Origin: a virus
Strand: one strand, 5' to 3'
IMG/VR virus record: IMGVR_UViG_3300037961_006825
Span: 1-64,000 of that record
DNA length: 64,000 bases
Under the pieces are notes generated by a model. It made no database searches. It saw nothing but the letters and a program-made list of their open reading frames with translations, and was not told the DNA's origin. Each line of letters opens with the position of its first letter. Position 1 is the first letter of the stretch. The position numbers were made by a program, and so were the translations under genes. This document shows, in pieces, positions 2,865-50,001 of the stretch.

Positions 2865-3542
2865 ATGAGCGCATTTAAGTCAACTAAAATTATTCCTATG
2901 GGATCTACCGCTTTTCGTCAATGGAGAGCTGAAAGTCATTGTCAATTTATTCATGGTTATCGTTTACAAACTAAAATTTGGTTTGGATTAAGTGAAGGAG
3001 CAACATTAGATGATAAAAATTGGGTATTTGACTTCGGTGGTTGTAAGGAGATTAAAAAATTATTAGAAGATCAGTTTGATCATACATTTTGCGCTGCAGC
3101 AGACGATCCAGAATTAGAAGTATTTAAGATGCTTGATAGTAAAGGTCTAATTCAACTAAGAATTATGGATGGAGTAGGTATTGAAAAGACTGCTGAATGG
3201 GTTTATACTGCAGTAAGTAATTATGTTAAAGAGTCTACTAAAGGTAGAGTAAAGATCGATAAGGTTGAAGTATGGGAGCATGAAGGTAATAGTGCAATAT
3301 ATGATACTAGACTAGATACTTTAAATAATCGTGCAGATAAATACGTTGATCAACGCGTAATCAGTAAAGAAAAGGCTCATGAAATGGCTATTGAAGAAAA
3401 TAAAGAGATTTTAAATAATCTTAAAAAAGAAAAGCCAATAGATCCTGAGTTAGATACAGGTAGAAAAAGTTCTTTAGGTTCAGATATACCGGTTTCAAAA
3501 GGTATGAGTAATCCGTTCCAAGGTACTTCATGGGGTAATTAA
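2865..3542 (+). CDS. queD: QueD-like 6-carboxy-tetrahydropterin synthase
   Basis: Member of the PTPS/QueD family, predicted to turn dihydroneopterin triphosphate (FolE2 product) into 6-carboxy-tetrahydropterin. Visible family features: catalytic-type Cys26 in SHCQFIHGY, the Asp-His pair D72-H73 in LEDQFDHTF, and the substrate-binding Glu region VEVWEHEG near 135-141. The usual HGH zinc motif reads HGY (H30, Y32), so one metal ligand must be supplied differently or is missing. Residues 150-225 form a charged, low-complexity tail not found in the roughly 120-140-residue bacterial enzymes. First gene after a strong host-type promoter, followed by a 65-residue ORF. Family call is good; catalytic competence is less certain because of the zinc-site change. 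Confidence 0.85.
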   Translation: MSAFKSTKIIPMGSTAFRQWRAESHCQFIHGYRLQTKIWFGLSEGATLDDKNWVFDFGGCKEIKKLLEDQFDHTFCAAADDPELEVFKMLDSKGLIQLRIMDGVGIEKTAEWVYTAVSNYVKESTKGRVKIDKVEVWEHEGNSAIYDTRLDTLNNRADKYVDQRVISKEKAHEMAIEENKEILNNLKKEKPIDPELDTGRKSSLGSDIPVSKGMSNPFQGTSWGN

Positions 3543-4564: not shown

Positions 4565-5308
4565 ATGGCATTAGATACGTTAAGTTTAAGTGATGATAAA
4601 GTGTTTTATACTCTAGAAGGTGAAGGTTTGCATATTGGTCAACCTTCTGTCTTTATGAGATTAGCGATGTGTAATCTATCTTGTAAAGGTTTTGCATCTG
4701 AAGATTCACCGCATGGTTGTGATTCTTTTGTTTCATGGTCTATAAAAAATAAGTTTACGTTCGATGACTTAAATTTATATTTTGAAGAGCATGGTTATGA
4801 TGAAGCATTACGTAAAGGTGCTATATTAAAAATAACTGGCGGTGAGCCTATGTTACAGCAACGTAGATTATTAGAATGGTTACCTACTTTTGAAGAATGG
4901 TTTGGGTTTAAACCTCGTATAGACTTTGAAAGTAATGCTAGTATAATGCCTAAAGAAGAGTGGATAACTGATTGGAATGCTACTTTTACTTTATCTCCTA
5001 AGATGAGTAATAATGGTGATCCAGAAAAGATTAGATATAAGCCTGAAGTTTTAAAATGGCATAATAGTCATGATGAAAGTTGTTTCAAGTTTGTTATTAG
5101 TAATAATAATGATGTTAAAGAGTTATATGAAAAATATATTGACCCTGGTTATGTAAGTAAAGATAAGATATGGTTAATGCCTTGTTGTGGTAGTAGAGAT
5201 GAACATACTGAAAAATCTACTATGGTAGCAGAATTATGTAAAGAACATCATTTTAAATTTAGCCCTAGACTTCAATTAGTAATATGGGATATGGCTTTAA
5301 AGGTATGA
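4565..5308 (+). CDS. queE: 7-carboxy-7-deazaguanine synthase QueE (radical SAM)
   Basis: Radical SAM enzyme predicted to convert 6-carboxy-tetrahydropterin to 7-carboxy-7-deazaguanine (CDG). N-terminal FYTLEGEGLHIGQPSVFMR matches QueE, and the SAM-binding TGGEP is at residues 91-95. Cluster cysteines are C36, C40 and C52, spaced Cx3Cx11C instead of Cx3Cx2C. An expanded cluster loop is known in some QueE proteins, so the enzyme may still be active. 247 residues, near the family norm. First gene of an operon with speD, speD-like and speE; the next start is one base after the stop. Confidence 0.9.
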   Translation: MALDTLSLSDDKVFYTLEGEGLHIGQPSVFMRLAMCNLSCKGFASEDSPHGCDSFVSWSIKNKFTFDDLNLYFEEHGYDEALRKGAILKITGGEPMLQQRRLLEWLPTFEEWFGFKPRIDFESNASIMPKEEWITDWNATFTLSPKMSNNGDPEKIRYKPEVLKWHNSHDESCFKFVISNNNDVKELYEKYIDPGYVSKDKIWLMPCCGSRDEHTEKSTMVAELCKEHHFKFSPRLQLVIWDMALKV

Positions 5309-5309
5309 T

Positions 5310-5678
5310 GTGAGTTTAGCAAATCACCAGATTATAGATTTTTACGGTTGTGATAAAGATATTTTATCTAACTCTGATATTGTAAAAAGTTATTTTGTTA
5401 AGGCTGCTGAAATGTCTCATGCAACTATTGTATCTGAAAAGTTTCATGAATTTAGTCCATTCGGTTTAACAGGTGTATTAGTGATAACTGAAAGCCATAT
5501 CAGTATACATACTTGGCCTGAATATGGGTATGTAGCAATTGATGTATTTAGCTGCTGTGATAAATTAGATCATAAAAGATTAGTTGATGTTTTACAAACA
5601 CATTTTAAAGCAAAAAAGGTAAATTCAAAAAGTATAAAGAGAGGTAGACATGGACGAGCATTCATTCGAAAAGGATAA
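5310..5678 (+). CDS. speD: S-adenosylmethionine decarboxylase proenzyme (SpeD)
   Basis: Pyruvoyl enzyme producing decarboxylated SAM, the aminopropyl donor for spermidine. The self-cleavage region TESHISIHTWPEYG is intact: E61-S62 is the processing site, with S62 becoming the pyruvoyl group; H67 and the Cys of DVFSCC are the other usual catalytic residues. 122 residues, normal for the prokaryotic form. The start is GTG at 5310, right after the queE stop, with no in-frame ATG nearby. Followed by a second SpeD-like gene (29-base overlap) and speE. Confidence 0.93.
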   Translation: MSLANHQIIDFYGCDKDILSNSDIVKSYFVKAAEMSHATIVSEKFHEFSPFGLTGVLVITESHISIHTWPEYGYVAIDVFSCCDKLDHKRLVDVLQTHFKAKKVNSKSIKRGRHGRAFIRKG

Positions 5679-6030
5679 ATTATGGGGCATGTCAATGTCC
5701 TTAGATCTCTATAAATGTAATCCGGATACAATTCGAGATGCAGATAAGATTAAAGAATACGTAAAAGAGCTTTGTGATAATGTCATTGATATGAAAAGAT
5801 ATGGTGAATGTCAAGTAGTTCATTTCGGTGACGATCCGAAAGTTACAGGGTTTTCAATGACTCAATTAATTGAAACGTCTTTAGTATCAGGACATTTTGC
5901 TAATAATACTAATGCAGCATACTTAGATATATTTTCTTGTAAATGGTATGATATAGATAAAGTTAGAGATTTTAGTGAAAAGTTTTTTGAAGCTAAAGCA
6001 TCAATAACTAATTTAAGTAAACGACAATGA
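5650..6030 (+). CDS. Second, divergent SpeD-like protein
   Basis: 126 residues resembling the short SpeD-like proteins of T4-like marine phages. It keeps a candidate processing serine in ETSLVSGHF (S77, with H82 aligned to SpeD His67) and the Cys of YLDIFSC, but the residues flanking the cleavage serine are T-S-L rather than E-S-H. It may be a second decarboxylase or a partner of the first SpeD, as paired pro-enzyme/prozyme systems exist in other organisms; this is inference. It overlaps speD by 29 bases if started at 5650; ATGs at 5689 and 5695 would avoid the overlap. Confidence 0.82.
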   Translation: MDEHSFEKDKLWGMSMSLDLYKCNPDTIRDADKIKEYVKELCDNVIDMKRYGECQVVHFGDDPKVTGFSMTQLIETSLVSGHFANNTNAAYLDIFSCKWYDIDKVRDFSEKFFEAKASITNLSKRQ

Positions 6031-6848
6031 TAATAGATGATAGTTGGGATAAAAAGAATGGTAGTACTATTCTTATTGAAGGAGAACTTTTAGAGGAAGT
6101 TCGTTCAGAATATCAACACATTGAAGTGTATGATACAAAACGTTTTGGTAAACTTTTAAAACTTGACGGTGTTATTCAACTAACTGAATTTGATGAAGCT
6201 AATTATCATGAAATGATAGCTCATGTACCTTTACGTACTCATAATACACCTGATAATGTTTTAGTTATCGGTGGCGGTGACGGCGGGGCTGTTAGAGAAA
6301 TATTAAAACATAAACGAGTTAAAAATATTGATTTAGTAGAAATTGATAATGAAGTTATAAAAATATCAAAAAAATATTTTCCAGAAATATCATCTGGTTT
6401 AGAAGATAGTAAAGTTACTATTATGAATCAAGACGGTGCTGAGTATATTAAAAAATGTACTAATTTATATGATGTAATAATTATAGATTCTACTGATCCA
6501 TTTAGTGTAGGTGAATCGCTTTTTAAAGAAGAATTTTATTCTAATTTAAAAAAAGCATTAAAAGAAAGAGGTATAGTTATTTCTCAATCTGAAAGTATGT
6601 TTTATAATAAAGATTTAATTCAAGATATGTTTGAATTTAAACGTAAACATTTTAACGTTGTAAGATATTATTATACTTTAGTACCTACATATCCGTCAGG
6701 AACGATTGGCTTTCATTTTTGTTCAGATGGTCATTATTTACCTATTGATTTAAATGATGATTCTTTTGATAGAATGGAAGGCTTAAAATATTATAACGAA
6801 ATGATTCATAACAGTAGTTTTTTAACACCAAACGGAGTAAGTAATTAA
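6027..6848 (+). CDS. speE: Spermidine synthase (SpeE)
   Basis: Aminopropyltransferase making spermidine from putrescine and decarboxylated SAM. 273 residues, like bacterial SpeE. Diagnostic pieces: SEYQHIEVY near residue 28, LKLDGVIQLTEFDE near 44-57, the nucleotide-binding VIGGGDGG at 80-87 and the catalytic IIIDSTDPF block. ATG overlaps the previous stop (ATGATAA), showing translational coupling with the SpeD pair. No decarboxylase for putrescine formation is seen here, so putrescine would come from the host. Confidence 0.95.
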   Translation: MIIDDSWDKKNGSTILIEGELLEEVRSEYQHIEVYDTKRFGKLLKLDGVIQLTEFDEANYHEMIAHVPLRTHNTPDNVLVIGGGDGGAVREILKHKRVKNIDLVEIDNEVIKISKKYFPEISSGLEDSKVTIMNQDGAEYIKKCTNLYDVIIIDSTDPFSVGESLFKEEFYSNLKKALKERGIVISQSESMFYNKDLIQDMFEFKRKHFNVVRYYYTLVPTYPSGTIGFHFCSDGHYLPIDLNDDSFDRMEGLKYYNEMIHNSSFLTPNGVSN

Positions 6849-7499
6849 ATGGCACAATTAATATGTAATTTACCAAACAATAAAGTTTGGGTTAGAAAAG
6901 AATTCTTAAGAGATGGCAAAGATGGGCATGGTGAGTTTGTTGAAGGTCATTGGGTAACTGCTAAAAGCATAGTTGGTAGAGCATTTTATTTTGAAACTTA
7001 TCTACCAGAATATGGTGCAGTATTTGATAAACTACCTATTAATGCATTTGTTTCATCACCTGAAAAACCAGATAAAGATTACCCATTACATGACTTACAA
7101 TTTTGGAATTGTATGGATTATGGAGTAACTTGTATTTATAAACAATTTATTGGTAGTATGGATTTTGAAATCTTTACTAGATCACATGATATTGTAAAAG
7201 GTACTTATTTGTTTACTTTAGATAATTATCATGCATCAGCAGATGAAATAGATTATAGTTGTTCTGAGGTACCTGCAGAGCATAAATCATTTAATTGTTT
7301 GGAGTTAGAAAATGGACAATATGCATTGTATCCTAATAATAGAATGAGAGTTTATGATAATTCATTAACTCCTAAAACTCCAAAAATGCCAGACTTTTTA
7401 GTTAGTACTGACTATTATCAAGTAGAAAGCGGTTACGAATATCGTTTAGGTGATACAGATGAGTACTTCTGGAAAACAAAAGATAAAAAGGATAAATAA
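6849..7499 (+). CDS. Hypothetical protein, end of polyamine operon
   Basis: 216 residues, soluble, aromatic-rich and acidic at the C-terminus, without a domain I recognise. It starts directly after the speE stop and is probably co-transcribed. No signal peptide or membrane segment. Function unknown. Confidence 0.75.
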   Translation: MAQLICNLPNNKVWVRKEFLRDGKDGHGEFVEGHWVTAKSIVGRAFYFETYLPEYGAVFDKLPINAFVSSPEKPDKDYPLHDLQFWNCMDYGVTCIYKQFIGSMDFEIFTRSHDIVKGTYLFTLDNYHASADEIDYSCSEVPAEHKSFNCLELENGQYALYPNNRMRVYDNSLTPKTPKMPDFLVSTDYYQVESGYEYRLGDTDEYFWKTKDKKDK

Positions 7500-7504
7500 A
7501 AATT

Positions 7505-7708
7505 ATGAGTATATTAATATCATTAGTAGTATTCGTAGCTGGGTTCGTCGTCGGTGCACTCGTAACACGTAAAAATGTTGAAGAGGTAAATGCTGTAGTT
7601 GCAGAAGCAAAAGAGCTTGCAGCTAAAATCGATGCAAAGGTTGATGAGCTTAAAGATGAAAAGAAGCCTGCTACGAAAAGAGGCCGTAAGCCTGCAGCAA
7701 AGAAATAA
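7505..7708 (+). CDS. Small membrane-anchored protein with basic tail
   Basis: 67 residues: an N-terminal hydrophobic segment (residues 3-20, ISLVVFVAGFVVGALV), an Ala/Glu/Lys helix with coiled-coil character (25-50), and a tail KKPATKRGRKPAAKK resembling AT-hook or histone-like tails. It could tether nucleic acid or protein to the membrane (inference). It is followed by a clear terminator that ends the queE-speE transcript. Confidence 0.7.
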   Translation: MSILISLVVFVAGFVVGALVTRKNVEEVNAVVAEAKELAAKIDAKVDELKDEKKPATKRGRKPAAKK

Positions 7709-7728: not shown

Positions 7729-7762
7729 AAACCCTGTTAATTAATTTTAGCAGGGTTTTTTT
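7729..7762 (+). terminator. Rho-independent terminator
   Basis: AAACCCTG (7729-7736) pairs with CAGGGTTT (7751-7758), followed by a T-run. It closes the queE-speD-speE operon. Confidence 0.88.
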
Positions 7763-8141
7763 ATAGATACTTAAGAGATAAATAATTGATAATTAAATGT
7801 ATCGTATTGTCAGTAATAATTAAAAGCCAAGTTGATAACCAAACTGGTACATCTTTATGATATCCATTAGTATCGCAATCTTTCCAACTAGGCCAATATT
7901 TGCAAGGAGCTATTTTTGTTTTTGCAAAGGCTATATATTTTGCAACTCCAAATCTATCGATTAAGAAATGGGTAAAGAAAATAGTAAACCAAGCAGCAAA
8001 TGAAGGCTGTAATAATAAAAACGGCAACGAGTAAACGAATGCATGGGTTGCAGCGGCTCTATTATTTTTAATTTTATGTAAAGCCATCCAATCACTTTGT
8101 AACAAGTAATCCCCTGTTAAGTGTAATATTAATTGTTCCAT
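7761..8141 (-). CDS. DUF3307 membrane protein
   Basis: 126 residues matching the DUF3307 family: N-terminal LHLTGDYLLQSDWMALHK, then hydrophobic segments around residues 32-62 and 100-122. DUF3307 proteins are small integral membrane proteins common in phages and bacteria; function unknown. It is the only minus-strand gene between the polyamine and curli regions, and it ends next to the terminator. Confidence 0.85.
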   Translation of the reverse strand: MEQLILHLTGDYLLQSDWMALHKIKNNRAAATHAFVYSLPFLLLQPSFAAWFTIFFTHFLIDRFGVAKYIAFAKTKIAPCKYWPSWKDCDTNGYHKDVPVWLSTWLLIITDNTIHLIINYLSLKYL

Positions 8142-8197
8142 AATCTAAATCTAAACCTTACCATATTATTTACTTATTGGGAAAGATAAGTCAACGT

Positions 8198-8205
8198 TAT
8201 AAATA
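8198..8205 (+). promoter_or_regulatory. Late promoter TATAAATA of the curli/cyclase operon
   Basis: Perfect T4-type late box ending 5 bases before the ATG at 8211. It is the first promoter of the operon that runs to 13991. Confidence 0.75.
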
Positions 8206-8210
8206 ATTAT

Positions 8211-8492
8211 ATGGAAGGTTTTATTAGATTTATGACCGAAGTTGGGTTTCCGATTGCAGGAGCTCTAGCTGGCGGTGTTTTCATCTTTATAATTTTAAAA
8301 TTTATATTAGAAGGTGTAAAAGGTTCTGTAGCCGGTCTTGGTGGTATGATTGGTAGTTTACAGAATAGAGTAGATGTAATGACAAATGAAATCGTTAAAA
8401 TTGATACATTAATTTCACATGCTTTTAATGTAGAACCAAACTTAGATAGAATAGCTGCTTCCGAAGGTAAAGAAGACGCAAGGAAAGATTAA
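8211..8492 (+). CDS. Small membrane protein, YvrJ-like N-terminus
   Basis: 93 residues with one strong transmembrane segment (about 10-35, VGFPIAGALAGGVFIFIILKF) and a helical tail. The GFPIA motif resembles the start of YvrJ-family small membrane proteins. The next gene looks like a diverged copy. First gene of the late curli/FecR/cyclase operon. Role unknown; a holin-like or envelope role is possible but not shown. Confidence 0.7.
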   Translation: MEGFIRFMTEVGFPIAGALAGGVFIFIILKFILEGVKGSVAGLGGMIGSLQNRVDVMTNEIVKIDTLISHAFNVEPNLDRIAASEGKEDARKD

Positions 8493-8494
8493 AA

Positions 8495-8812
8495 ATGGGT
8501 AATGCAGAAATAGATAGTATTTCAAAATTAGTAAATGATTTCGGGTTCCCGGTCATAGCAGCTATAGGTTTAGGCTATTTTGTGTATTACGTATGGCAAT
8601 GGGTAACTAAAGATATTTCTCCAGTAATAGGTGATTCAAAAAAGACGTTAATAGGTTTAATTGATAAAGTAAGAATGTTAGATAATGACATGATTCGTCT
8701 GAATATTAAACTAAAAATGATTCTTCAAGAACAGGAAAGAAAGAAGCACTTAGAAGATGATTACAATAAAAGACGAAACGAACTTGATAAACTTATTAAT
8801 GAGAGTAAATAA
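8495..8812 (+). CDS. Small membrane protein, paralogue of the preceding gene
   Basis: 105 residues. A transmembrane segment follows a GFPVIAAIGLGYF motif (residues 17-35), then a long charged coiled-coil tail. Layout and motif match the gene just upstream, 2 bases away, suggesting duplication. It precedes csgF by 5 bases, so both small membrane proteins are likely co-expressed with the curli genes. Confidence 0.7.
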   Translation: MGNAEIDSISKLVNDFGFPVIAAIGLGYFVYYVWQWVTKDISPVIGDSKKTLIGLIDKVRMLDNDMIRLNIKLKMILQEQERKKHLEDDYNKRRNELDKLINESK

Positions 8813-8817
8813 TTTTT

Positions 8818-9291
8818 ATGAAATGTATTCTAATACTTTTTATACCTATTTTATGTTTTGGAAGTGAAATAGTTTTTCAATTTAAATCTCCTACATTTAA
8901 CGGGGTAGGTTATTCAGCTCACGAATTAGCTAAAGAGCAAATTACTTTTAACAGAAAGAAAAGTATAGCAGATGAGTTAGAAGCTATAGCTTTACAAGCT
9001 CAATTAGCAGAAGATAGATCAGCTTTAAATACTTTTTTGTCAAATGTTCAAGCAAGAATTTATTCTGAATTAGCTAAGCAAGTAACTGAGCAATTATTTT
9101 CAGATGACGGAGCTGAATCAGGTACTTTTACTTTAGAAGGTAATCAAATTACTTGGTATAAATCAGCAGATGATAATATTGTATTAACTGTAGCAGATCT
9201 AATAGCTGGTACAACTACTGAAATTATTATACCAGTTGGTACATTATTTATACCGTTAGAAACAACTACAGGTACTACAGGTGATGATTAA
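8818..9291 (+). CDS. csgF: CsgF-like curli assembly protein
   Basis: 157 residues with a signal peptide (cleavage after about residue 15, FCFG-SE) and the CsgF start IVFQFKSPTFNG, the region that in characterised CsgF inserts into the CsgG pore. The middle helix and beta-rich C-terminus (TWYKSADDNIVLTVAD) also match. In bacteria CsgF sits at the CsgG secretion channel and couples secretion to nucleation of amyloid on the surface. It directly precedes csgG and overlaps it by a few bases. The C-terminal tail is Thr/Gly-rich. Confidence 0.88.
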   Translation: MKCILILFIPILCFGSEIVFQFKSPTFNGVGYSAHELAKEQITFNRKKSIADELEAIALQAQLAEDRSALNTFLSNVQARIYSELAKQVTEQLFSDDGAESGTFTLEGNQITWYKSADDNIVLTVADLIAGTTTEIIIPVGTLFIPLETTTGTTGDD

Positions 9292-10135
9292 AAATTTAAT
9301 TTTAGCATTTAGTTTATTTTTTATTGCAGGGTGTGTTTCAACACCAACTTATAATAGTCCTTATATTCAAAGACCACCTTATTTAATTGAACAAGGTGAA
9401 ATGAAAAAAATGGAAAAAGCTCCTATATATGTTGCTGTTTATAAATTTACTGATTTAACCGGTCAAAGAAAATCTACAGATAATTTTGCAAGTTTTTCTT
9501 CTGCAGTAACTCAAGGAGGTGAAGCTTGGGTAATTGAATCATTAATGGAAGCTGGTAATGGTCAATGGTTTAAAGTAGTAGAAAGAGCAGGTTTAGCTAA
9601 TCTACTAAATGAAAGAAATATAATTAAAAATACCCAAGAAGATTTTTCTGATAAACCTCCTCAAATAAAACCTTTATTATATGCAGGTATATTAATTGAA
9701 GGGGGAATTATTTCATATGAAAGTAATATTGTATCTGGCGGAGCAGGTGCTAGTTATTTAGGTATAGGTCTCTCAAAACAATACAGAAAAGATAATGTTA
9801 CAGTATCAATGAGAATGGTTAGTACTGTGTCGGGGGAAGTATTACTATCATCAACAGTAAGTAAAACTATTTTAAGTGTAGGTTTAGGTGGTACTTTATT
9901 CAAATATTTTGATACAGATAAATTAGGTTTAGGTGATTTTAATGAATATGGTGAAGCTGAAATAGGTTTTGCAAGAAATGAAAGAGTTTCAATGGCAACA
10001 AGAAAAGCTATAGATGCGTGTATAATTGATTTAGTATTACAAGGTCACGATGCTAAATTATGGAAATTATTAGAACCAATTCCAGAGCCAGAAGTTGAAC
10101 CTATTTTAGATTTGAAATCAAATAAAAGTAAGTAA
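9284..10135 (+). CDS. csgG: CsgG-like curli secretion channel lipoprotein
   Basis: CsgG forms a nonameric outer-membrane pore that secretes curli subunits. The lipoprotein signal LILAFSLFFIAGC has a clear lipobox. The body has CsgG features: IYVAVYKFTDLTGQ, a WFKVVERAGLANLLNER block, the IKPLLYAGILIEGGI region and VTVSMRMVSTVSGEVL. Length fits the family (about 277-285). I start it at ATG 9284; an in-frame GTG at 9281 is immediately upstream. It overlaps csgF and is followed by the curlin-like gene. No csgE is seen, so periplasmic gating may differ or be host-supplied. Confidence 0.93.
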   Translation: MIKNLILAFSLFFIAGCVSTPTYNSPYIQRPPYLIEQGEMKKMEKAPIYVAVYKFTDLTGQRKSTDNFASFSSAVTQGGEAWVIESLMEAGNGQWFKVVERAGLANLLNERNIIKNTQEDFSDKPPQIKPLLYAGILIEGGIISYESNIVSGGAGASYLGIGLSKQYRKDNVTVSMRMVSTVSGEVLLSSTVSKTILSVGLGGTLFKYFDTDKLGLGDFNEYGEAEIGFARNERVSMATRKAIDACIIDLVLQGHDAKLWKLLEPIPEPEVEPILDLKSNKSK

Positions 10136-10139
10136 TTTA

Positions 10140-10147
10140 TATAAATA
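10140..10147 (+). promoter_or_regulatory. Late promoter TATAAATA of the curlin-like gene
   Basis: Perfect late box ending 5 bases before ATG 10153. It would give extra, leaderless transcription of the curlin-like, FecR and cyclase genes. Confidence 0.72.
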
Positions 10148-10152
10148 CTTAT

Positions 10153-10959
10153 ATGAAGAAAATTACATTTATATCAATATTAGCGTTAGTTACCTCGTTA
10201 GCATATGCAAATAACGAGATTTACTTAGAACAGGAAGGTACAACAGGTACTTTTAATATTACTCAAATCGGTTCATCAAATAGAATCGGTCAATCAACTG
10301 ACATTTCAACAATTAAAGGTAATGATAGTATCTTTAATTTATCTCAATTAGGTAATAGTAATGCATTAGACATCAATTGGGATGGTAAAGAAACTACTTT
10401 TGATCTTTATATTGAAGGTGATGGTAATACACAAGACTTAGTAGTTACAGGGGATGGTAATGATTTTGATAATGTTATTTTAGGTAATAATAACTCTTTA
10501 ACAGTTTCAAAAGACCCAACTTCTGACGATGCTTCAAGTATTTCAGATCAAACATTTAATAATTATATTATTGGTGATAGTAACTCTTTAGATTTTTATC
10601 TTGATTCGAATGTTAATGCTGTAGTTGATATTACAATTGCAGGTAGTAGTAATGATTTAACATCAATTCAAGAAGGTGGTAACTTAGGAGTAGGTCATTC
10701 ACAAACACTTGAATTACAAGGTAGTGGTAATACAGTAGAGTTAGTACAAAGTGGTTCAGAATCTCAAACATTAGAATTAACTCACTACGGTCATGACACA
10801 ACATTTACAATTATTCAATCAGATGGAACGTATACAGCTGGTTTAGAAGGTGCTAATGTAATAAGTAATTTTGATGGAAGTTATTCAGCAGTTTATGCAC
10901 AACCTGGTTTCTTACTTGGCTCAGTACCTGAAGCAACAGCCGGTGCTGACGGTAACTAA
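10153..10959 (+). CDS. Curlin-like amyloid repeat protein
   Basis: 268 residues. Signal peptide MKKITFISILALVTSLAYA, then imperfect repeats of about 20-25 residues of the type FNITQIGSSN, FNLSQLGNSN, LELQGSGNT and VELVQSGSES, resembling the Q-x-G-x-x-N curlin repeats of CsgA/CsgB. With csgF and csgG immediately upstream, this is the likely secreted substrate. The repeats are more degenerate than in E. coli CsgA and the C-terminus (YAQPGFLLGSVPEATAGADGN) is not repeat-like, so whether it forms fibrils is unproven. Predicted extracellular. Confidence 0.82.
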   Translation: MKKITFISILALVTSLAYANNEIYLEQEGTTGTFNITQIGSSNRIGQSTDISTIKGNDSIFNLSQLGNSNALDINWDGKETTFDLYIEGDGNTQDLVVTGDGNDFDNVILGNNNSLTVSKDPTSDDASSISDQTFNNYIIGDSNSLDFYLDSNVNAVVDITIAGSSNDLTSIQEGGNLGVGHSQTLELQGSGNTVELVQSGSESQTLELTHYGHDTTFTIIQSDGTYTAGLEGANVISNFDGSYSAVYAQPGFLLGSVPEATAGADGN

Positions 10960-11872
10960 ATCTTTAATTTTATTTTTCTTCATTTGTTTAACCTCTTCTG
11001 CTGCTGGTTCAGTTGGAGAGGTTTTCCATCAAACAAGACAAGCTCAAATTACTAGAGGAGCAGATAAAATTTTAACTGAAGTAGGTACTGAAGTTGAAAT
11101 GGGTGATAAAATAGAAACATTAAAAGGTAGTATCACTATAGTATTCGTTGATAAAACTGAGGTAACTATATCAGAATATTCAAAACTTATAATAGATGAA
11201 TTTGTATATGATGCTAATAGTAATAAAGGAAAAATTAATTTAAAAGCAGGTTTAGGTAAATTAAAATATACTTCAGGTATAATGGCTAATAAAGAAAATA
11301 TTAGAATAACGACTCCTACTGCATCAGTTTCTGTTAGAGGTACTGATTTTGAAACTACTGTAAATGAAGCTGGCTCAAGTACTTTTACATTACTACCTTC
11401 AATAGCTGCTGATGGGTCAACGTATGTTGGAGTTATTGAAGTTTTTAATGCAACCGGTGCTGTTGTATTAGATACTGCTTTCGAAGTAACTACTGTATCA
11501 TCATCTTATACACCACCTACTCCTCCAGTAATTAACAGAGCAAGATTAAATGAAGCTATAGAAAAAAGAGATAATCAAAATGAAGAAATAAATGAAACCG
11601 AATCAGTAGATGATGAAGAATTAGATTTAGATAGTGAAAAAGACGCTTTAGATGAATCTTTAATACAGTTAATGGAAGAAGATAATTCAAATGGATTATT
11701 TTATGAAGAAGATGACAAAGCAATATTTGAATCTGTAGATGGAGAGAATAAAGTTAAATTAATAGTAGATAAAGATTCAAATGTCTCACTAAAATATGAT
11801 AATAAAGGAGTTATAACTGAAGGTAATCACAACAGTGGTGGTAACGTAATTATAAATATTATACAACAATGA
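10943..11872 (+). CDS. FecR-domain protein
   Basis: A signal peptide (KSLILFFFICLTSSAAG) precedes a FecR domain: GDKIETLKGSITIVFVD, TEVTISEYSKLII, the LKAGLGKLKYTSG block and ITTPTASVSVRGTDF. After it come an acidic Glu/Asp-rich region and a C-terminal VIINIIQQ segment. Secreted or periplasmic. I prefer the GTG at 10943, because it places the signal peptide at the N-terminus and reduces the overlap with the curlin-like gene to 17 bases; an in-frame ATG at 10871 would add a non-signal extension. In bacteria, FecR-domain proteins are often encoded beside CHASE2-cyclases, as here. A ligand-sensing role for the cyclase is inference. Confidence 0.8.
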   Translation: MLTVTKSLILFFFICLTSSAAGSVGEVFHQTRQAQITRGADKILTEVGTEVEMGDKIETLKGSITIVFVDKTEVTISEYSKLIIDEFVYDANSNKGKINLKAGLGKLKYTSGIMANKENIRITTPTASVSVRGTDFETTVNEAGSSTFTLLPSIAADGSTYVGVIEVFNATGAVVLDTAFEVTTVSSSYTPPTPPVINRARLNEAIEKRDNQNEEINETESVDDEELDLDSEKDALDESLIQLMEEDNSNGLFYEEDDKAIFESVDGENKVKLIVDKDSNVSLKYDNKGVITEGNHNSGGNVIINIIQQ

Positions 11873-13911
11873 AGTTAAAAAAACTAAAACCATTTTTATG
11901 GTGTATGTTTATTGCATTAATATTTTCTGCAATAAGAATATACGATCCATACCCGGTAGAAATAATTAGACTTAAAGGTTTAGATTTTTATCAAAGGCAA
12001 CAAGAAGCAAAAATATCTCAAGAAATTAGTATTGTAGAAATAGATGAAGCAAGTTTAGAGCAATATGGTCAGTGGCCTTGGAAAAGAGATATTTTATCTA
12101 ATGGTATAATAAAAGCATTTGAAAATAATGCAGCTTTAGTAGTATTACCAATATTATTTGCTGAAGAAGATAGACTAGGTGGTGATGAATTTTTTATACA
12201 AACAATACAAAATTATCCTGTAGTTACTTCGCAATCAGCTTCATTGAAAGGTAAGGGTAAAGTAGTACCAAGAGGTATATCTACTATTGGTACGGGGTTA
12301 TATAATTGGTTATATGACTATCCAGCAGGTATAGGACCGTTAGATAGTATAGGTAAATATTCAGCAGGGGTAGGTATGCTTTTAACAGCTCCAGAGTTAG
12401 ATGGCGTTGTGAGAAGGCTACCTTTACTTATACAAATTAATGGAGAACCTTACCCTACAATACCTTTAGAAGTTTTACGATTATTCGGAGGTGAACAATC
12501 TTATCAGGTAAAAGTTGATGAAATGGGAATAAATAAAGTTAGAGTATTAGGTGTAAATACTATTGATACTGACCAACATTCTCGAGTTTGGATAAACTTT
12601 AATAATGAATTTAATAAAATATCATTCATAGATAATGATTGGACAAGTTTAGAAAATAAGATTGTTGTAATTGCTTTAACAGCTGAAGGATTATCTAACT
12701 CAGTTGCAACACCAATTAAGGTTAGCAATGGTCATGAATTAAATATGCAGGTTTTACAAATGTTAATTGACGGCAATACTTTAAATAGACCAGTTGACGC
12801 AACTATAAATGAAGTTCTTATAACTTTAGGTATAAGTTTAATTTTAACTTTAGGTGCATTATTTTTATTATATTATATAAATGTATTTTTATTACTTATT
12901 ACAGTAATTTTATTACCTTATACAGGGTTTTACCTCTTTAATAACTATAATTTACTTTACGACTATACATATCCTTTATATTCAACATTTATAATTTTTA
13001 CAATAGCTATTTTCTTTAGATTTATTCATGAATTTAAAGGTAGAATGTTAATAAAAAAACAATTTGAACATTATCTTGCCCCTGAAATAGTTAAAAAACT
13101 TCAAAAGAATCCTGATATGTTAAAATTAGGAGGTGATACACAGGACTTAACTATTTTATTTTCTGATATCAGAGGGTTTACTACTATAAGTGAGCAATTC
13201 AAAGATAATCCACAAGGATTAACTGATTTAATTAATAGATATCTTACACCTATGACTCAAATAGTTATGGAATCAGGCGGTACTATTGACAAGTATATTG
13301 GAGATGCTTTAATGGCGTTTTGGAATGCACCTATACCAGAAGATAAGACGTCACATAGAATAAAAGCTATAGAAGTTGCAATAAAAATGCAATCTGAGTT
13401 GGAAAAACTTAATATACAATTAGTAGAAGAAGGTAAAAAGGAACTTGCAATAGGTATTGGTATTAATACTGGAACAGTTGTGGTAGGTAATATGGGATCT
13501 GATCAAAGATTTGATTATACTTGCTTAGGAGATGCTGTAAATTTATCAGCTAGACTTGAAGGGCAAACTAAATCATATGGCGTGGGTATATTATTAGGTG
13601 AAGAAACTATAAAACATATTGAAGATAAATTTAAATTTATTGAGTTAGATAAAATTGCAGTGAAGGGTAAAAAAGAAGGTAAATATGTATATACAGTTTT
13701 AGATAAATTTAACCATACTTTACATAATGCATTTTTAGAGTACTATAAGAATAGAAAATGGAAACAAGCTTTATTGACAATAGAGAAGATTTTTGATAAA
13801 GGTACACAGCTTGAGTTTTACTATAAAGAAATGGAAAAAAGAGTTGTTGATTTAGCTAAAAATGATCCAGGTGAAGATTGGGATCAAGTATATAGATTAA
13901 AGACAAAATGA
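11869..13911 (+). CDS. Membrane class III adenylate cyclase with CHASE2 sensor
   Basis: 680 residues: N-terminal transmembrane helix (about 8-24), periplasmic CHASE2 domain (about 30-305, with VEIDEASLEQYGQWPW and LVVLPILFAEED), three transmembrane helices (about 312-385), then a cytoplasmic class III nucleotidyl cyclase domain (about 425-600). Catalytic residues visible: metal-binding Asp in LFSDIRGFTT and in YIGDALMAFW, the specificity lysine in TIDKYIGD, and Asn/Arg in DAVNLSARLEG. The active site looks complete and most like bacterial adenylate cyclases. ATG overlaps the FecR stop (ATGA). A membrane cyclase in a phage is highly unusual. cAMP rather than cGMP as product is inferred from motif type. 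Confidence 0.93.
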   Translation: MKLKKLKPFLWCMFIALIFSAIRIYDPYPVEIIRLKGLDFYQRQQEAKISQEISIVEIDEASLEQYGQWPWKRDILSNGIIKAFENNAALVVLPILFAEEDRLGGDEFFIQTIQNYPVVTSQSASLKGKGKVVPRGISTIGTGLYNWLYDYPAGIGPLDSIGKYSAGVGMLLTAPELDGVVRRLPLLIQINGEPYPTIPLEVLRLFGGEQSYQVKVDEMGINKVRVLGVNTIDTDQHSRVWINFNNEFNKISFIDNDWTSLENKIVVIALTAEGLSNSVATPIKVSNGHELNMQVLQMLIDGNTLNRPVDATINEVLITLGISLILTLGALFLLYYINVFLLLITVILLPYTGFYLFNNYNLLYDYTYPLYSTFIIFTIAIFFRFIHEFKGRMLIKKQFEHYLAPEIVKKLQKNPDMLKLGGDTQDLTILFSDIRGFTTISEQFKDNPQGLTDLINRYLTPMTQIVMESGGTIDKYIGDALMAFWNAPIPEDKTSHRIKAIEVAIKMQSELEKLNIQLVEEGKKELAIGIGINTGTVVVGNMGSDQRFDYTCLGDAVNLSARLEGQTKSYGVGILLGEETIKHIEDKFKFIELDKIAVKGKKEGKYVYTVLDKFNHTLHNAFLEYYKNRKWKQALLTIEKIFDKGTQLEFYYKEMEKRVVDLAKNDPGEDWDQVYRLKTK

Positions 13912-17259: not shown

Positions 17260-18054
17260 ATGAGAATAGCAATCTGTGGAACAGCAAATATGGGTAAGAG
17301 TACCCTTATTAATGATTTTATAAAAGCATTTCCGACTTATGAAGCGGATATTGAAACGTATCGAAAAAAAATAGTTGATGAGGAATTACCTCATAGTAAA
17401 GAAACAAATAAAGATACGCAATGGAAAGTTCTTAATCATATGATTGATAGACTACAGAGTTATTCAAAAGATGACCATGTAATCTTTGACAGATGCCCGT
17501 TAGATAATTTAGTTTATTCATTATGGTCATTAGAAAAAGGAGCAAGTGATATTGATGATGACTTTATTTCTAAGTGTTTACCTTTAGTTAGAGAAAGTAT
17601 GAGTCATTTAGATATTATATTTTTCTTACCTATCAGCAAATATAATAAAATGACAATTGAAAGTGATGGTATGAGAGAAACTGATACTAAATATATTGCT
17701 GAAATAGATGCATTTTTTAAAGTTATTCAAAGGCATTATAATGAAAATCCTCAAGAAAATCCTTTCTTTCCAAGAGATGATATGCCAGGATTTATTGAAA
17801 TTTTTGGAAATAGAGAAGAACGTATTGCAATGATTAAACTATACGTTGATGTAGAAGGTGATCTCATAGGCGGTAACGATGAAGATTTAGCTAATTTATT
17901 AGCTCAAAGTGCAGGTGGGGTAGGTCTCGATGAAACTACAAATGCTATGGAAAATTTAATTAAAGCGCAAAAAGAAGCTGATAAAACTGAAAAAGAAGTA
18001 AAAGTACAATTACAGGATATTAAAAACTTCTTAAAAGATGGCGGTAAAATTTAA
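17260..18054 (+). CDS. P-loop kinase-like NTPase (AAA_28/NadR-kinase type)
   Basis: 264 residues. Walker A GTANMGKST at 7-15 and the FDRCPLDNLVYSLW block are typical of the AAA_28/NadR-like kinases that phosphorylate nucleotides or nucleosides. The C-terminal 60 residues are an acidic then coiled-coil tail absent from the shorter relative at 46788. Substrate unknown; deoxynucleotide salvage is plausible. Strong leaderless-type promoter shared with the nuclease gene. Confidence 0.82.
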   Translation: MRIAICGTANMGKSTLINDFIKAFPTYEADIETYRKKIVDEELPHSKETNKDTQWKVLNHMIDRLQSYSKDDHVIFDRCPLDNLVYSLWSLEKGASDIDDDFISKCLPLVRESMSHLDIIFFLPISKYNKMTIESDGMRETDTKYIAEIDAFFKVIQRHYNENPQENPFFPRDDMPGFIEIFGNREERIAMIKLYVDVEGDLIGGNDEDLANLLAQSAGGVGLDETTNAMENLIKAQKEADKTEKEVKVQLQDIKNFLKDGGKI

Positions 18055-45967: not shown

Positions 45968-45975
45968 TATTTACT
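45968..45975 (-). promoter_or_regulatory. Late-type box AGTAAATA
   Basis: Minus-strand box 7 bases before ATG 45960, back to back with the dpdA early promoter. Confidence 0.5.
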
Positions 45976-46002
45976 TGATAATTATGTTTTATATACTATA
46001 AT
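45975..46002 (+). promoter_or_regulatory. Host-type promoter of the dpdA-queF operon
   Basis: TTGATA (45975-45980), 16 bases, TATAAT (45997-46002), 6 bases to ATG 46009. Confidence 0.8.
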
Positions 46003-46008
46003 TATAGT

Positions 46009-46791
46009 ATGTTAGTATCTCATGAAAGCCCTATAAGTATGCTCGAGAAATCGAGAGATTATAATGATTATGATTATGCTTTAGTCCATCTCTTTGAGTC
46101 TCATCCAAAGTATTATGATTTCTTTAAAGAATCATTATTAATGGATAGAGATGTATTATTAGATAATAGTATATTTGAGTTAGGTGAAGCATTTGATCAT
46201 AAGAAATTTGCTAAGTATGTTAAAGAATTAAAACCTACTTATTATATAGTACCTGATGTATTAGAAAATGGTTATGAAACTATTAAACATTATATTGAGT
46301 TTTGTTCAGAATATACTGATTTACCTGGTAGTAAAATAGGTGTAGTTCAAGGTAAAACGTATGATGAGTTAGTTGATTGTTATCGCTTTATGGAGCAAAA
46401 TGCTGATTATATTGCTATTAGTTTTGATTATAGTTATTATGTTACTACTGGGTTTGGTAAAACTAAACTTGAAAGATGGTGTAATGGTAGGCAAAGATTT
46501 ATAAAGCATCTAAAAGATGACGGTGTATGGAATTGTCATAAACCTCATCATTTGTTAGGTTGTTCATTAGCAAGAGAGTTTAAAGCTTATGTAGGAGATA
46601 ACTCTATAAGATCTGTTGATACATCTAATCCTATAGTTGCAGGTATTAAGGAACTAAGATATAATAGTGATTTAGGATTGAATGATAAACCTTCTATAAA
46701 ATTAGCAGATTTAATTGATACAAAAGTTAATGCAAGTCAAGTAGAAGATATAATGTATAACGTAGGAAAATTTAAAAATATAGTTACATGA
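46009..46791 (+). CDS. dpdA: DpdA-like DNA 7-deazaguanine transglycosylase
   Basis: 260 residues of the TGT-related phage family DpdA, which exchanges guanine in DNA for a 7-deazaguanine base. Recognisable: VSHESPISMLEKSRDYNDYDYALVHL-type start, LLDNSIFELGEAF (active-site region), YIVPDVLENG, IGVVQGKTYDEL, YIAISFDYSYY, HHLLGCSLAREF and SVDTSNPIVAGI. Clearly shorter than tRNA-TGT (about 370) and without its zinc site. First gene of an early operon with a kinase and queF. DNA as substrate is known for the family; the base inserted here is inferred. Confidence 0.85.
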   Translation: MLVSHESPISMLEKSRDYNDYDYALVHLFESHPKYYDFFKESLLMDRDVLLDNSIFELGEAFDHKKFAKYVKELKPTYYIVPDVLENGYETIKHYIEFCSEYTDLPGSKIGVVQGKTYDELVDCYRFMEQNADYIAISFDYSYYVTTGFGKTKLERWCNGRQRFIKHLKDDGVWNCHKPHHLLGCSLAREFKAYVGDNSIRSVDTSNPIVAGIKELRYNSDLGLNDKPSIKLADLIDTKVNASQVEDIMYNVGKFKNIVT

Positions 46792-47342
46792 TAATTACTT
46801 TTACAGGAGCTCAAAGTACTGGTAAATCTACTTTACTAGATAAATGTACGTATGATGGTAGGTTTAATTGCTATAGCTTCGTACCTGAAATAACTAGAAA
46901 GTTAAAGAAAAAATATAACTTAACTATAAATGAAAATGGTGATGAATATACTCAATTATTTTGTATTAATAGTCATTTAGAAAATTATCTAAGTCATAAA
47001 AATAGTAAGGTGGTATTAGATAGATGTGCATTAGATGCTTTAGTTTATACGACTTATCAATATCATACTGGTAAAGTTAATGAATGGGTAATGGATTATG
47101 CAACTAATTTATTTGAGAGTTTAAAAGATAAATATGATATTATTTTTTATACTGAACCTGATATTGATTTAGTTGATGACGGTGAAAGAAGTAGTAGTAA
47201 TGAGTTTAGAGATACTATTGTTAAACTATTTGAGGAAGCAATAGATCATTATAATTTAAAAGTAGTACGATTAAAAGGTACTGTTGAAGAACGTATGGTA
47301 ACAATATATAAAACTTTAGATAAAATTAATTATGGCAAATAA
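46788..47342 (+). CDS. P-loop kinase-like NTPase (AAA_28/NadR-kinase type)
   Basis: 184 residues. GAQSTGKSTLLDKC (Walker A), LDRCALDALVYTTYQY, FYTEPDIDLVDDGERSSS and a C-terminal RLKGTVEERM match the AAA_28/NadR-like kinases; related to the gene at 17260. Sandwiched between dpdA and queF with 4- and 11-base overlaps, so it may phosphorylate or salvage a modified nucleoside (inference). Confidence 0.83.
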   Translation: MIITFTGAQSTGKSTLLDKCTYDGRFNCYSFVPEITRKLKKKYNLTINENGDEYTQLFCINSHLENYLSHKNSKVVLDRCALDALVYTTYQYHTGKVNEWVMDYATNLFESLKDKYDIIFYTEPDIDLVDDGERSSSNEFRDTIVKLFEEAIDHYNLKVVRLKGTVEERMVTIYKTLDKINYGK

Positions 47343-48261
47343 AACATTAGATAATAGTAGGATAAGTAAGCATTTAGGTCAAACGTCTCAATATAAGAGT
47401 CAGTATGATCCTGAGTTATTGGTAAGAGAGCCTCGTAGTAATAATCGAGAATATTTGAATATATTTGATGATGATTTACCTTTCGTGGGATCAGATACGT
47501 GGAATGCATATGAGTGTTCGTTTCTTTTAGATAACGGATGCCCTGTAACTGGGATTGTAAAATGTGTGTATCCTTGTAGTAGTAAGTATATTGTTGAGAG
47601 TAAAAGTATTAAGTTATATTTTAATTCCTTTAATATGACTAAAATAGCTGCTGATAGAGATGTAGCTATTAGTTCTTTTGAAAATACTGCAAGTAAAGAT
47701 TTAAGTAAGTTACTAGAGACTGAAGTTAAGGTATCATTTCAAGACGGGGCTCGTGTAAATAATACTTATAATAGTCCTAATGGTGCTTGGGATATAGATC
47801 AATATATAAACGTAGATCATTTAGAAGATCAAAAAGATTATATTTATAATCAGTATACTGAAGACCCGAGCTTATTAGAAGGAATAACTCGTCAAAGAGA
47901 TCTAAAGCAATATTTTTATTCCGGGTTGCTTAAAAGTAACTGTCGTGTAACTTCTCAACCTGATTGGGGTGATGTATTTATATACATTAAATCTAAGTAT
48001 GCTATTGATGCGCATAGCATTAAAAAGTATATTGTATCTTATAGAGATGAGTGTCATTTTCATGAAGAGATCTGCGAATGTTTTTATAAACGTTTAAAAG
48101 ATGCATTTGATCCTTCTGAACTTTTAGTTATGTGTTTATACGCTCGTAGAGGTGGTATTGATATTAACCCTGTAAGAGCGTCGAATCAAGATCTAATTGA
48201 TGAATTTGCTGGTAGTTTAGTCGATCCAGATGTAGTTCATATTAAAACTTCTAAACAATAA
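47332..48261 (+). CDS. queF: QueF 7-cyano-7-deazaguanine reductase
   Basis: 309 residues, bimodular (two T-fold halves) like E. coli QueF. Predicted to reduce preQ0 to preQ1 with NADPH. Visible: NADPH motif VESKSIKLYFNSF (89-100), catalytic Cys204 in LLKSNCRVT, D211 in QPDWGD, and H244-E245 in HFHEEICE. Follows dpdA and the kinase. It implies a preQ1-type base as the end product, provided preQ0 comes from a QueC encoded elsewhere or by the host. Confidence 0.93.
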   Translation: MANKTLDNSRISKHLGQTSQYKSQYDPELLVREPRSNNREYLNIFDDDLPFVGSDTWNAYECSFLLDNGCPVTGIVKCVYPCSSKYIVESKSIKLYFNSFNMTKIAADRDVAISSFENTASKDLSKLLETEVKVSFQDGARVNNTYNSPNGAWDIDQYINVDHLEDQKDYIYNQYTEDPSLLEGITRQRDLKQYFYSGLLKSNCRVTSQPDWGDVFIYIKSKYAIDAHSIKKYIVSYRDECHFHEEICECFYKRLKDAFDPSELLVMCLYARRGGIDINPVRASNQDLIDEFAGSLVDPDVVHIKTSKQ

Positions 48262-48471: not shown

Positions 48472-50001
48472 TTATGCAAAATACACGCTGTTTGTACCAG
48501 GTGTGAATGCAGATCCGAGTCCTGTACAAATGATTACGTGGTAGTAAAGGTTAGCACCAAAGATATTATCAACGACGCCATAACGAGTAAGCAAGCCTAC
48601 TCTAGGAGCGAAGTCGTTAGGACCAATTGTGCGTTGTACCATTACAGGAATGTAAGGACAGTAGATAATACCAGTGTCATAGAACTCAGGTCCTTTGTAT
48701 CCTAATAGGATATATTCAGGAGCTGTAGAAGCTGCGGCACTGAAATCATTACCAATTGTTTGTCCTTCTGTTCTTGTATCACGATAAACATTGAAACGTC
48801 CACCAAGGTTACCGATCTTAGCAACACCTACTGGCTGTGTATTAACGTTACCTTGAACTGGTACCCACTGGAATTCAGGGAGCATTTCCAAGATAGCGCA
48901 AACACGTGGAGTAGCAACTAAGAAGTTAGCAGCACCACGTCTGTTTCTAACAGCAATACGGTTAGCTTCGACGATTACTCTTTGATATAAGTCTCTGTTA
49001 CGCTCAACAATCCAACGTCCGTCAGCAGAAGCAGGTGACCAGATAGAATATCCAGTACCTTTTTGTGCATTAAGAGCAGTTTGAATCATACGGATCAACA
49101 TTTCACGATCGATCTCAGCCTGAATTTCATATGACATAGCATTTGTTAACTCAGTATCGATATCGATTCCGTTCATGTTTTTAAGATCCTGTTCTAATTC
49201 AACTGACCATCTAGCGCCTAAGCGTCTAGTACCGGCTTCTACAGCAGTCTTCTCAAACGAAACTTCCATTGTAGGAATTTTGTTTGTGATTTCGAAGTTC
49301 TTTAGAAGTGCTGCAACACCCTTATCGTTAGCATCGATTGTAAAATCATCGTTACCAGATAAGTATGTTGAAGTTTGTCCGGTATAACCAGTTACTAGCT
49401 CTTGGAAACCAGCTTCTTTAGCAGAAGCAGCGGTTGCAGCAGTGCTATCAGCACCGGAACCAGGGTTACCAGAAATTTGATCGCTATCGAAGCCATCAAC
49501 ACCAGTTCCACCTAAAGTTTCACCAGAGTAACGGTAACGTAATGCGAACGCTAGACCAACTGGTCCGGCCATTGGTTGAACACCAACAATCTCATTTGTA
49601 ATTAACTCGGGAAAAGTACGTCTAATCATTGGAATCAAGATCTTAGGCAGACGAGCGTCACCAGAAGCGTAAGTATCTTCGCCAGGTGTACCACCGACTG
49701 TTGCTCGATTGTTCCAAGAAGTTGCAGTATCACCTAAAGAACCAGTTTGTGAACCAGCACCATGTCCAGCTGCTACAGATGAACCACCAATATTACTCAC
49801 AGGAGTATAGTTAGGTCCAGCTTCTTTCAAACACCATGTCTCTTGGTTTTCCAAAAGCATAGCAGTGTTTAAACGTGTATGGCTGTCTTCGATAGGAGCA
49901 ACACTCTTTGAAGTGTAATCTAATACAGGAGCCCATTTCTCTAATAGTTGAGAAGCTCTTGATTCGTCAATATATGCCTGTGTAGGTCTAATTGAATTCA
50001 T
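48472..50001 (-). CDS. gp23: Major capsid protein (gp23-like)
   Basis: 509 residues; the shell protein of T4-like heads. N-terminal SRASQLLEKWAPVLD and the RLNTAMLLENQ block are classic, followed by GSQTGSLGDTATSWNNRA, the cross-phage PMAGPVGLAFALRY and the C-terminal VDNIFGANLYYHVI. T4 gp23 is cleaved by gp21 to gp23*; a site of the L/I-x-E type is expected near residue 60. Richer in GC and Ala/Gly codons than its neighbours, consistent with high expression. A 70-80-base leader has an SD (AAAGGA). Confidence 0.97.
   Translation of the reverse strand: MNSIRPTQAYIDESRASQLLEKWAPVLDYTSKSVAPIEDSHTRLNTAMLLENQETWCLKEAGPNYTPVSNIGGSSVAAGHGAGSQTGSLGDTATSWNNRATVGGTPGEDTYASGDARLPKILIPMIRRTFPELITNEIVGVQPMAGPVGLAFALRYRYSGETLGGTGVDGFDSDQISGNPGSGADSTAATAASAKEAGFQELVTGYTGQTSTYLSGNDDFTIDANDKGVAALLKNFEITNKIPTMEVSFEKTAVEAGTRRLGARWSVELEQDLKNMNGIDIDTELTNAMSYEIQAEIDREMLIRMIQTALNAQKGTGYSIWSPASADGRWIVERNRDLYQRVIVEANRIAVRNRRGAANFLVATPRVCAILEMLPEFQWVPVQGNVNTQPVGVAKIGNLGGRFNVYRDTRTEGQTIGNDFSAAASTAPEYILLGYKGPEFYDTGIIYCPYIPVMVQRTIGPNDFAPRVGLLTRYGVVDNIFGANLYYHVIICTGLGSAFTPGTNSVYFA

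Follow-up and report, generated by a model that had tools for sequence, protein, structure and literature searches.

The DNA of phage Dp-1 holds dPreQ1, and measured modification by 7-deazaguanines is partial in CAjan, at about 32% of G, and in Dp-1, at 1.7% (PMC6884629). The DNA of the Campylobacter Firehammerviruses CP220 and CPt10, in turn, holds dADG (PMC8306585), and a passage on the Firehammerviruses describes them as exchanging bases with "100% efficiency" and "into an existing DNA strand" (PMC10877033). The relevant passages of two further papers describe DpdA as acting on the polymer or after replication (PMC12783734, PMC12707154), and the first of them also outlines the nucleotide-level substitution route of the PurZ/Z-genome phages. 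The literature ascribes the replacement of all guanine by 7-deazaguanines in some phages to a swap on finished DNA, whereas the pairing of DpdA with a kinase reported here points to a nucleotide-level route, which this pairing makes directly testable.

The window, that is, the whole stretch of DNA analysed, comprises bases 1-64,000 of the 74,204-base linear IMG/VR virus record IMGVR_UViG_3300037961_006825. The phage is judged to be T4-like from a gp23-type capsid gene (48472-50001) and from its match to the same gene of a relative, the contig G007. A sequence-only reading had proposed genes for FolE2, QueD, QueE, a DpdA-like protein, a P-loop kinase and QueF, and all six ORFs were recovered at the places it assigned to them. 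They do not form three loci, as that reading had it, but two neighbourhoods. The first, inside 5.3 kb, holds FolE2, the GTP cyclohydrolase of the first step from GTP (18-1067, minus strand; PF02649, 2.4e-73; NF010200, 276 bits vs a cut-off of 215), a QueD-like 6-carboxytetrahydropterin synthase (2865-3542, plus strand; PTPS, 5.2e-17; phrog_2389, 3.7e-34; TIGR03367 below its cut-off) and a QueE-like radical SAM 7-carboxy-7-deazaguanine synthase (4565-5308, plus strand; phrog_2076, 1.7e-43). The second holds, on the plus strand, a small-type DpdA, or DNA guanine/7-deazaguanine transglycosylase, assigned by homology and predicted fold (46009-46791), an AAA_28 P-loop kinase (46788-47342; 7.2e-20) and QueF, the nitrile reductase that converts preQ0 to preQ1 (47332-48261). 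This QueF is bimodular, with N- and C-terminal domains both over cut-off (PF14819, 3.1e-33; PF14489, 1.4e-21), and it matches TIGR03138 at 4.9e-73 with 246 bits, below the cut-off of 293. The NCBIfam models for QueE also score below their curated cut-offs, as do those for QueD and QueF, while the PTPS and QueF Pfam domains and the QueD and QueE PHROGs match well.

The dpdA and kinase genes overlap by ATGA, the kinase and queF genes by 11 bases, and the genes flanking the three lie on the minus strand. These overlaps make the operon sound, but its proposed early expression finds no backing: a promoter-like site with 11/12 consensus matches (45975-46002, plus strand), ending 7 bases before the dpdA start codon, is weak, since such sites occur in the operon region at chance density (18 found vs 17.7 expected) and give no sign of early transcription. 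In the first neighbourhood, FolE2 is by far the best conserved protein of the pathway among these phages: in 33 records its median identity to the window protein is 91.7%, vs 61.4% for QueE and 52.1% for QueD. Directly downstream of queE (5310-6848) lie an S-adenosylmethionine decarboxylase gene (PF02675) and then, by eye, a spermidine-synthase-like gene, followed at 7761-13911 by a block of CsgG-like, curlin-repeat-like, FecR-like and CHASE2/adenylate-cyclase-like genes, also recognised by eye. Similar genes stand between DpdA and a formyltransferase gene in relative G018 (L116, 2843-9026) and account for the 7-kb gap between DpdA and kinase in that contig.

The protein at 46009 has no match in Pfam or NCBIfam. 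A Campylobacter CP220-type phage protein shares 50% identity with it, and a Flavobacterium phage protein annotated as DpdA shares 49%; against the Firehammervirus DpdAs, identity is 49-51% over 99% of the query. By tblastn, DpdA was found in 32 phage records, 18 of them at 48.8-50.6% identity (14 Campylobacter, 4 Flavobacterium), with the remaining phage records among the matches listed at 24-29%. A model built from 43 sequences (pLDDT 95.7) retrieves a tRNA-guanine transglycosylase (TGT) in 50/50 of the Foldseek matches listed, and superposes on the DpdA crystal structure 7ui4 with Z 16.9 and rmsd 3.1 over 226 residues, and on 1iq8 with Z 17.4. As modelled, the window protein is a member of the TGT/DpdA transglycosylase superfamily with the TIM-barrel TGT fold, and its reading as a DpdA-type enzyme is upheld by the roughly 50% identity to annotated or known phage DpdAs, by this fold and by the match to 7ui4. 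The residues D52, D83, Q114-G115, G184 and D204 are invariant across the 43 sequences; judged by eye, they may correspond to the two catalytic Asp and the base-recognition residues of TGT. In profile comparisons, hhalign aligned DpdA with E. coli TGT at 2% probability only, pairing VQGK with IIQGS, and a profile search against PDB sequences found nothing. The protein is presumably a DpdA3, a subfamily linked with complete replacement of G. As a sign of a DNA or non-DNA substrate, pI and net charge proved uninformative: the 79 DpdAs are without exception acidic (median pI 5.40), and so are E. coli TGT (5.97) and most background proteins of the loci. Two related contigs show one in-frame TAG in DpdA (G013, 146095-146880; G012, 1-294), and the kinase of G012 (7205-7660) shows one in-frame TGA.

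QueC was reported as missing by the sequence-only reading, which proposed looking for it in the rest of the genome. There are indeed 0 matches across the whole 74,204-base record, which is itself a fragment ending 17 bases past the stop of folE2. Among 50 FolE2-bearing relatives, picked from 80 mainly by length, 17 carry QueC, including 5/5 of those longer than 100 kb (G007, G013, G018, G043 and G048). All of these five except G043, which gave no DpdA match, also carry a window-type DpdA, and the distance from the 3′ end of folE2 to the queC lying past it is about 13, 19, 20 and 31 kb; in a 93-kb relative with DpdA (G009), the distance is about 37 kb. In G007 (127 kb), whose folE2 is 91% identical, queC is found 12.7 kb past the folE2 3′ end, beside recA-like and DNA polymerase genes identified by eye. 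The window ORFs have no match in this queC stretch and one weak match (41956) just outside it. A class-II glutamine amidotransferase-like gene stands directly beside this queC (L029, 11320-11952, minus strand, equivalent to G007 49320-49952). QueC is also present in CP220 and in the Flavobacterium phage immuto. Since the record stops just after folE2 and the long relatives with DpdA have queC beyond it, the missing QueC is almost certainly a truncation of the record, so that QueC is absent from the record without this being a real gap, and the window phage would carry the gene in the rest of its genome.

With QueF present and the absence of QueC most likely a truncation, the expected base is preQ1, as the sequence-only reading had put first, and a preQ1-type base in the DNA of this phage is highly likely. 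Its alternative, namely a phage devoid of QueC that incorporates CDG and leaves QueF unused, is scarcely credible. The lack of QueC in the 74,204-base record would fit it, and so would the Cellulophaga phage phiST, whose record encodes QueD, QueE, FolE and DpdA but gives no match to QueC; but 5/5 relatives longer than 100 kb have queC, the window record ends before the region concerned, and QueF is retained in 64/71 of the loci with the kinase in the stretch analysed, 6 of the other 7 having <1.5 kb of sequence left. A CDG-type base deduced from the missing QueC was therefore rejected.

The kinase between dpdA and queF, which the same reading flagged as foreign to the described pathway, proves to be a near-invariant partner of this type of DpdA. 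Its Walker A motif is GAQSTGKS, and its model (pLDDT 91.8) has the NadR kinase as best match (Z 17-19; top row Z 18.9, rmsd 2.4, 172 residues), with deoxyadenosine, deoxycytidine, human deoxyguanosine and thymidylate kinases at Z 16-17. As predicted, the fold is that of the deoxynucleoside kinases, thymidylate kinases (TMPK) and the NadR kinase, and the near-equal matches leave both nucleosides and nucleotides as possible substrates. A single-sequence search of the PDB gave nothing useful, a profile search returned NadR and TMPK weakly, and databases name window-type kinases thymidylate kinase. Glu34 is invariant in a 39-row alignment of the kinase and is not kept in CP220 or in the Campylobacter phage CC_R7, so one shared substrate for all these kinases is not assured. 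The conserved stretch DDGxRS resembles NadR. The window also encodes a paralogue of the operon kinase, a second AAA_28 kinase (17260-18054, plus strand; 1e-9), whose orthologues lie within 60 bases of queE in 30/39 relatives having both genes (in G007, at 65857-66537). In 50,697 phage records, this second kinase was found in only 14, all of Campylobacter phages bearing DpdA, one phage being split over segment records.

Among named phages, a close DpdA and a close kinase (34-38% identity) occur in exactly the same set of 18 records, several of these records being duplicates of one phage. Among viral contigs, of which the best 80 DpdA loci were taken and more exist, the kinase is present in 79/80 records with window-type DpdA, the exception being cut off at DpdA itself. 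It lies on the same strand, downstream and within a 6-kb stretch in 71 of these loci (directly adjoining DpdA in 46, separated from it by roughly one gene in 21, farther away in 4); the other 9 comprise 7 with the kinase about 7 kb downstream, 1 with the kinase cut by the contig end and 1 with DpdA at the contig end. After dereplication at <85% identity, 39/39 records have the kinase, 32 in the stretch and 7 elsewhere in the record (one cut). Reciprocally, DpdA is found in 78 of the best 80 kinase loci, and the other two contigs leave no more than 141 and 835 bases ahead of the kinase. Across the 50 FolE2 relatives, the kinase accompanies DpdA wherever DpdA is uncut, and kinases of its class do not occur in records lacking DpdA.

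As a control, 80 loci with DpdA of the CAjan/Dp-1 type were taken; an HMM matched 74 of them, and 62 offered >1.5 kb of sequence on either side. A mechanical test, which asks for a same-strand gene of 110-300 aa with an N-terminal Walker A motif within three genes of DpdA, detects a kinase-like neighbour in 0/62 of these control loci, compared with 47/59 loci of the window type. Applied to other genes, the same test is positive in 4/405 cases in control loci vs 79/337 in window-type loci, an excess probably coming mostly from genes near the same kinase. The gene follows DpdA and not QueF: CP220 has the kinase without QueF, and only 4 of 57 phage records with QueF, all from Flavobacterium, have a close kinase. 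Altogether, the kinase is very probably a functional part of the modification system. That it would be a ribosylnicotinamide kinase raising NADPH for QueF is suggested by the NadR kinase in the top structural row and by the NadR-like DDGxRS stretch, but this role is very unlikely, as the CP220 kinase adjoins DpdA in a phage devoid of QueF and most QueF phage records have no window-type kinase; we accordingly disfavour it. A literature search of titles and abstract openings, a scope outside which the field's main papers fall and may describe it, returned no DpdA-kinase pairing. While base chemistry and enzyme family have been described before, that search turned up neither the pairing nor its absence in the control type nor its recurrence with unrelated kinases, and these are, to that extent, new.

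This recurrence is observed beside other small DpdAs. In phiST, the Chryseobacterium phage MA9V-3 and contig L283, the gene directly upstream of DpdA encodes a kinase from a different family (phrog_19196, AAA_18), which is also found in L286 three genes away from DpdA, while L284 and L285 (2/6 of the phiST-type loci) have no kinase adjoining DpdA. The Bacillus phage BSTP12 and the Weizmannia phage Youna2 have a phrog_761 kinase directly upstream and a DNA polymerase directly downstream of DpdA; the BSTP12 DpdA, scanned against the viral contigs, gave no relative. In CC_R7, queC, DpdA, an AAA_28 kinase and DNA polymerase are consecutive, and the window-type HMMs find this kinase and not this DpdA. 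The Rhizobium phage RHph_I1_18 has no kinase adjoining DpdA. Because unrelated kinase families adjoin other small DpdAs, the pairing appears to have more than one origin.

Other genes of nucleotide metabolism occupy the same operons in some relatives. A PurN-like formyltransferase, presumably a DpdN, the enzyme for formyl-preQ1, occurs in 23 of the best 80 DpdA stretches, and in 19 it occupies the slot separating DpdA from the kinase. That slot holds a dATP/dGTP diphosphohydrolase-type protein (PF18909; 3.5e-19 and 3.6e-22 in two scanned) in 5 of the best 80 loci and, in 8 loci, a protein with sub-threshold similarity to DUF1599, the "Nucleotide modification associated domain 1" (E 0.0023, 0.02 and 0.068 in three of four stand-alone copies scanned), fused to the formyltransferase in 3 (L179, 6817-7722; L180, 2200-3126; L183, 2331-3239). 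The small ORF of the slot, taken by eye for MazG, gave only these sub-threshold DUF1599 matches, and one further copy had no Pfam match at E 0.1. Nucleotide pyrophosphohydrolase-like proteins are encoded nearby in immuto and phiST, whereas a universal MazG in these phages was rejected, as a search of 18 long records gave a single match, below cut-off, and none in the window record. The window operon itself contains no formyltransferase, PF18909, DUF1599-like or pyrophosphohydrolase gene.

From the gene identities, the folds and the linkage observed here, we infer the product, the substrates of DpdA and of the kinase, and the order of their action relative to replication. The pathway would start with the synthesis of preQ1 by FolE2, QueD, QueE, QueF and a QueC whose gene would lie past the point where the fragment stops. 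The small DpdA would then swap guanine for preQ1 on free deoxyguanosine or dGMP, and the kinase would phosphorylate the product towards preQ1-dNTP. Finally, the phage polymerase would incorporate preQ1-dNTP in place of the guanine nucleotide, which would account for the complete replacement in relatives. We favour this route because a dedicated kinase has no place in an exchange on finished DNA as the published passages describe it, and an obvious one in an exchange on a nucleoside or nucleotide. It is further favoured by the near-absolute linkage, the kinase fold, the association with DpdA and not QueF, the empty control, the unrelated kinases elsewhere, the PF18909 proteins and the second kinase by queE. 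Moreover, the measured partial modifiers, CAjan and Dp-1, are without the kinase and the reported full replacers have it, although this is an association only. Against the nucleotide-level route count the published polymer-level accounts, the fold that DpdA shares with the polymer-acting TGT and DpdA, the lack of a universal MazG, the three small DpdAs without an adjoining kinase (L284, L285 and RHph_I1_18), the variable Glu34 and the lack of a QueC match in the window phage's own record.

The conventional scheme, in which DpdA exchanges guanine for preQ1 in finished DNA and the co-transcribed kinase merely boosts the deoxynucleotide supply as a thymidylate- or deoxynucleoside-kinase-like helper, agrees with the passages calling DpdA post-replicative and with the thymidylate kinase name and fold. 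A general helper should not, however, track one type of DpdA so closely, nor would non-orthologous kinases be expected to recur beside other small DpdAs while the CAjan/Dp-1-type loci have none, and we regard this scheme as rather unlikely. Recycling, with DpdA acting on DNA and the kinase salvaging modified deoxynucleosides or nucleotides from DNA turnover, or re-phosphorylating a by-product of the pathway, would explain the linkage without altering the DpdA reaction and suits the resemblance of the kinase to nucleoside-acting enzymes, namely deoxynucleoside kinases and the NadR kinase. It leaves unexplained the dGTP diphosphohydrolase-type and MazG-like genes nearby in some phages and the second kinase beside queE, and appears improbable. 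The replacement of guanine by preQ1 in DNA through a small DpdA and a dedicated kinase, preferably by the nucleotide-level route, stands in our judgement at about even chances, and the step on which that route turns, a base exchange preceding polymerisation, marginally below them. More tentatively still, small DpdAs may in general swap the base on deoxyguanosine or dGMP instead of finished DNA, with one or two dedicated kinases and, in some phages, dGTP-clearing hydrolases leading to a modified dNTP used instead of dGTP; such a pathway would give full substitution and be widespread in marine T4-like phages. If true, these phages would provide enzymes for making modified dNTPs.

The closest known systems differ from the window phage in distinct ways. 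CP220 and CPt10 are likewise T4-like, with a DpdA about 50% identical, a related kinase directly downstream, and genes for QueD, QueE, QueC and GTP cyclohydrolase at dispersed sites. Unlike the window phage, however, CP220 has no QueF, so its product differs from the preQ1 that QueF predicts here. Phage immuto shares QueD, QueE, DpdA, kinase and QueF, with its cluster genes running in one direction and queC elsewhere, but it uses FolE instead of FolE2 and has two further genes, one for a nucleotide pyrophosphohydrolase upstream and one for a PurN-like formyltransferase separating DpdA from the kinase, neither of which is found there in the window. The PurZ/Z-genome phages would offer a likeness in the order of events, with conversion at the dGMP level, phosphorylation and incorporation, although their enzymes and their base are different and the nucleotide-level step is, for the window phage, a hypothesis. 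Finally, the CAjan/Dp-1-type DpdA is also a TGT-type transglycosylase, tied by experiment to dPreQ0 and dPreQ1, but it is longer (median 310 vs 266 aa), lacks the kinase neighbour in all 62 loci and goes with partial modification.
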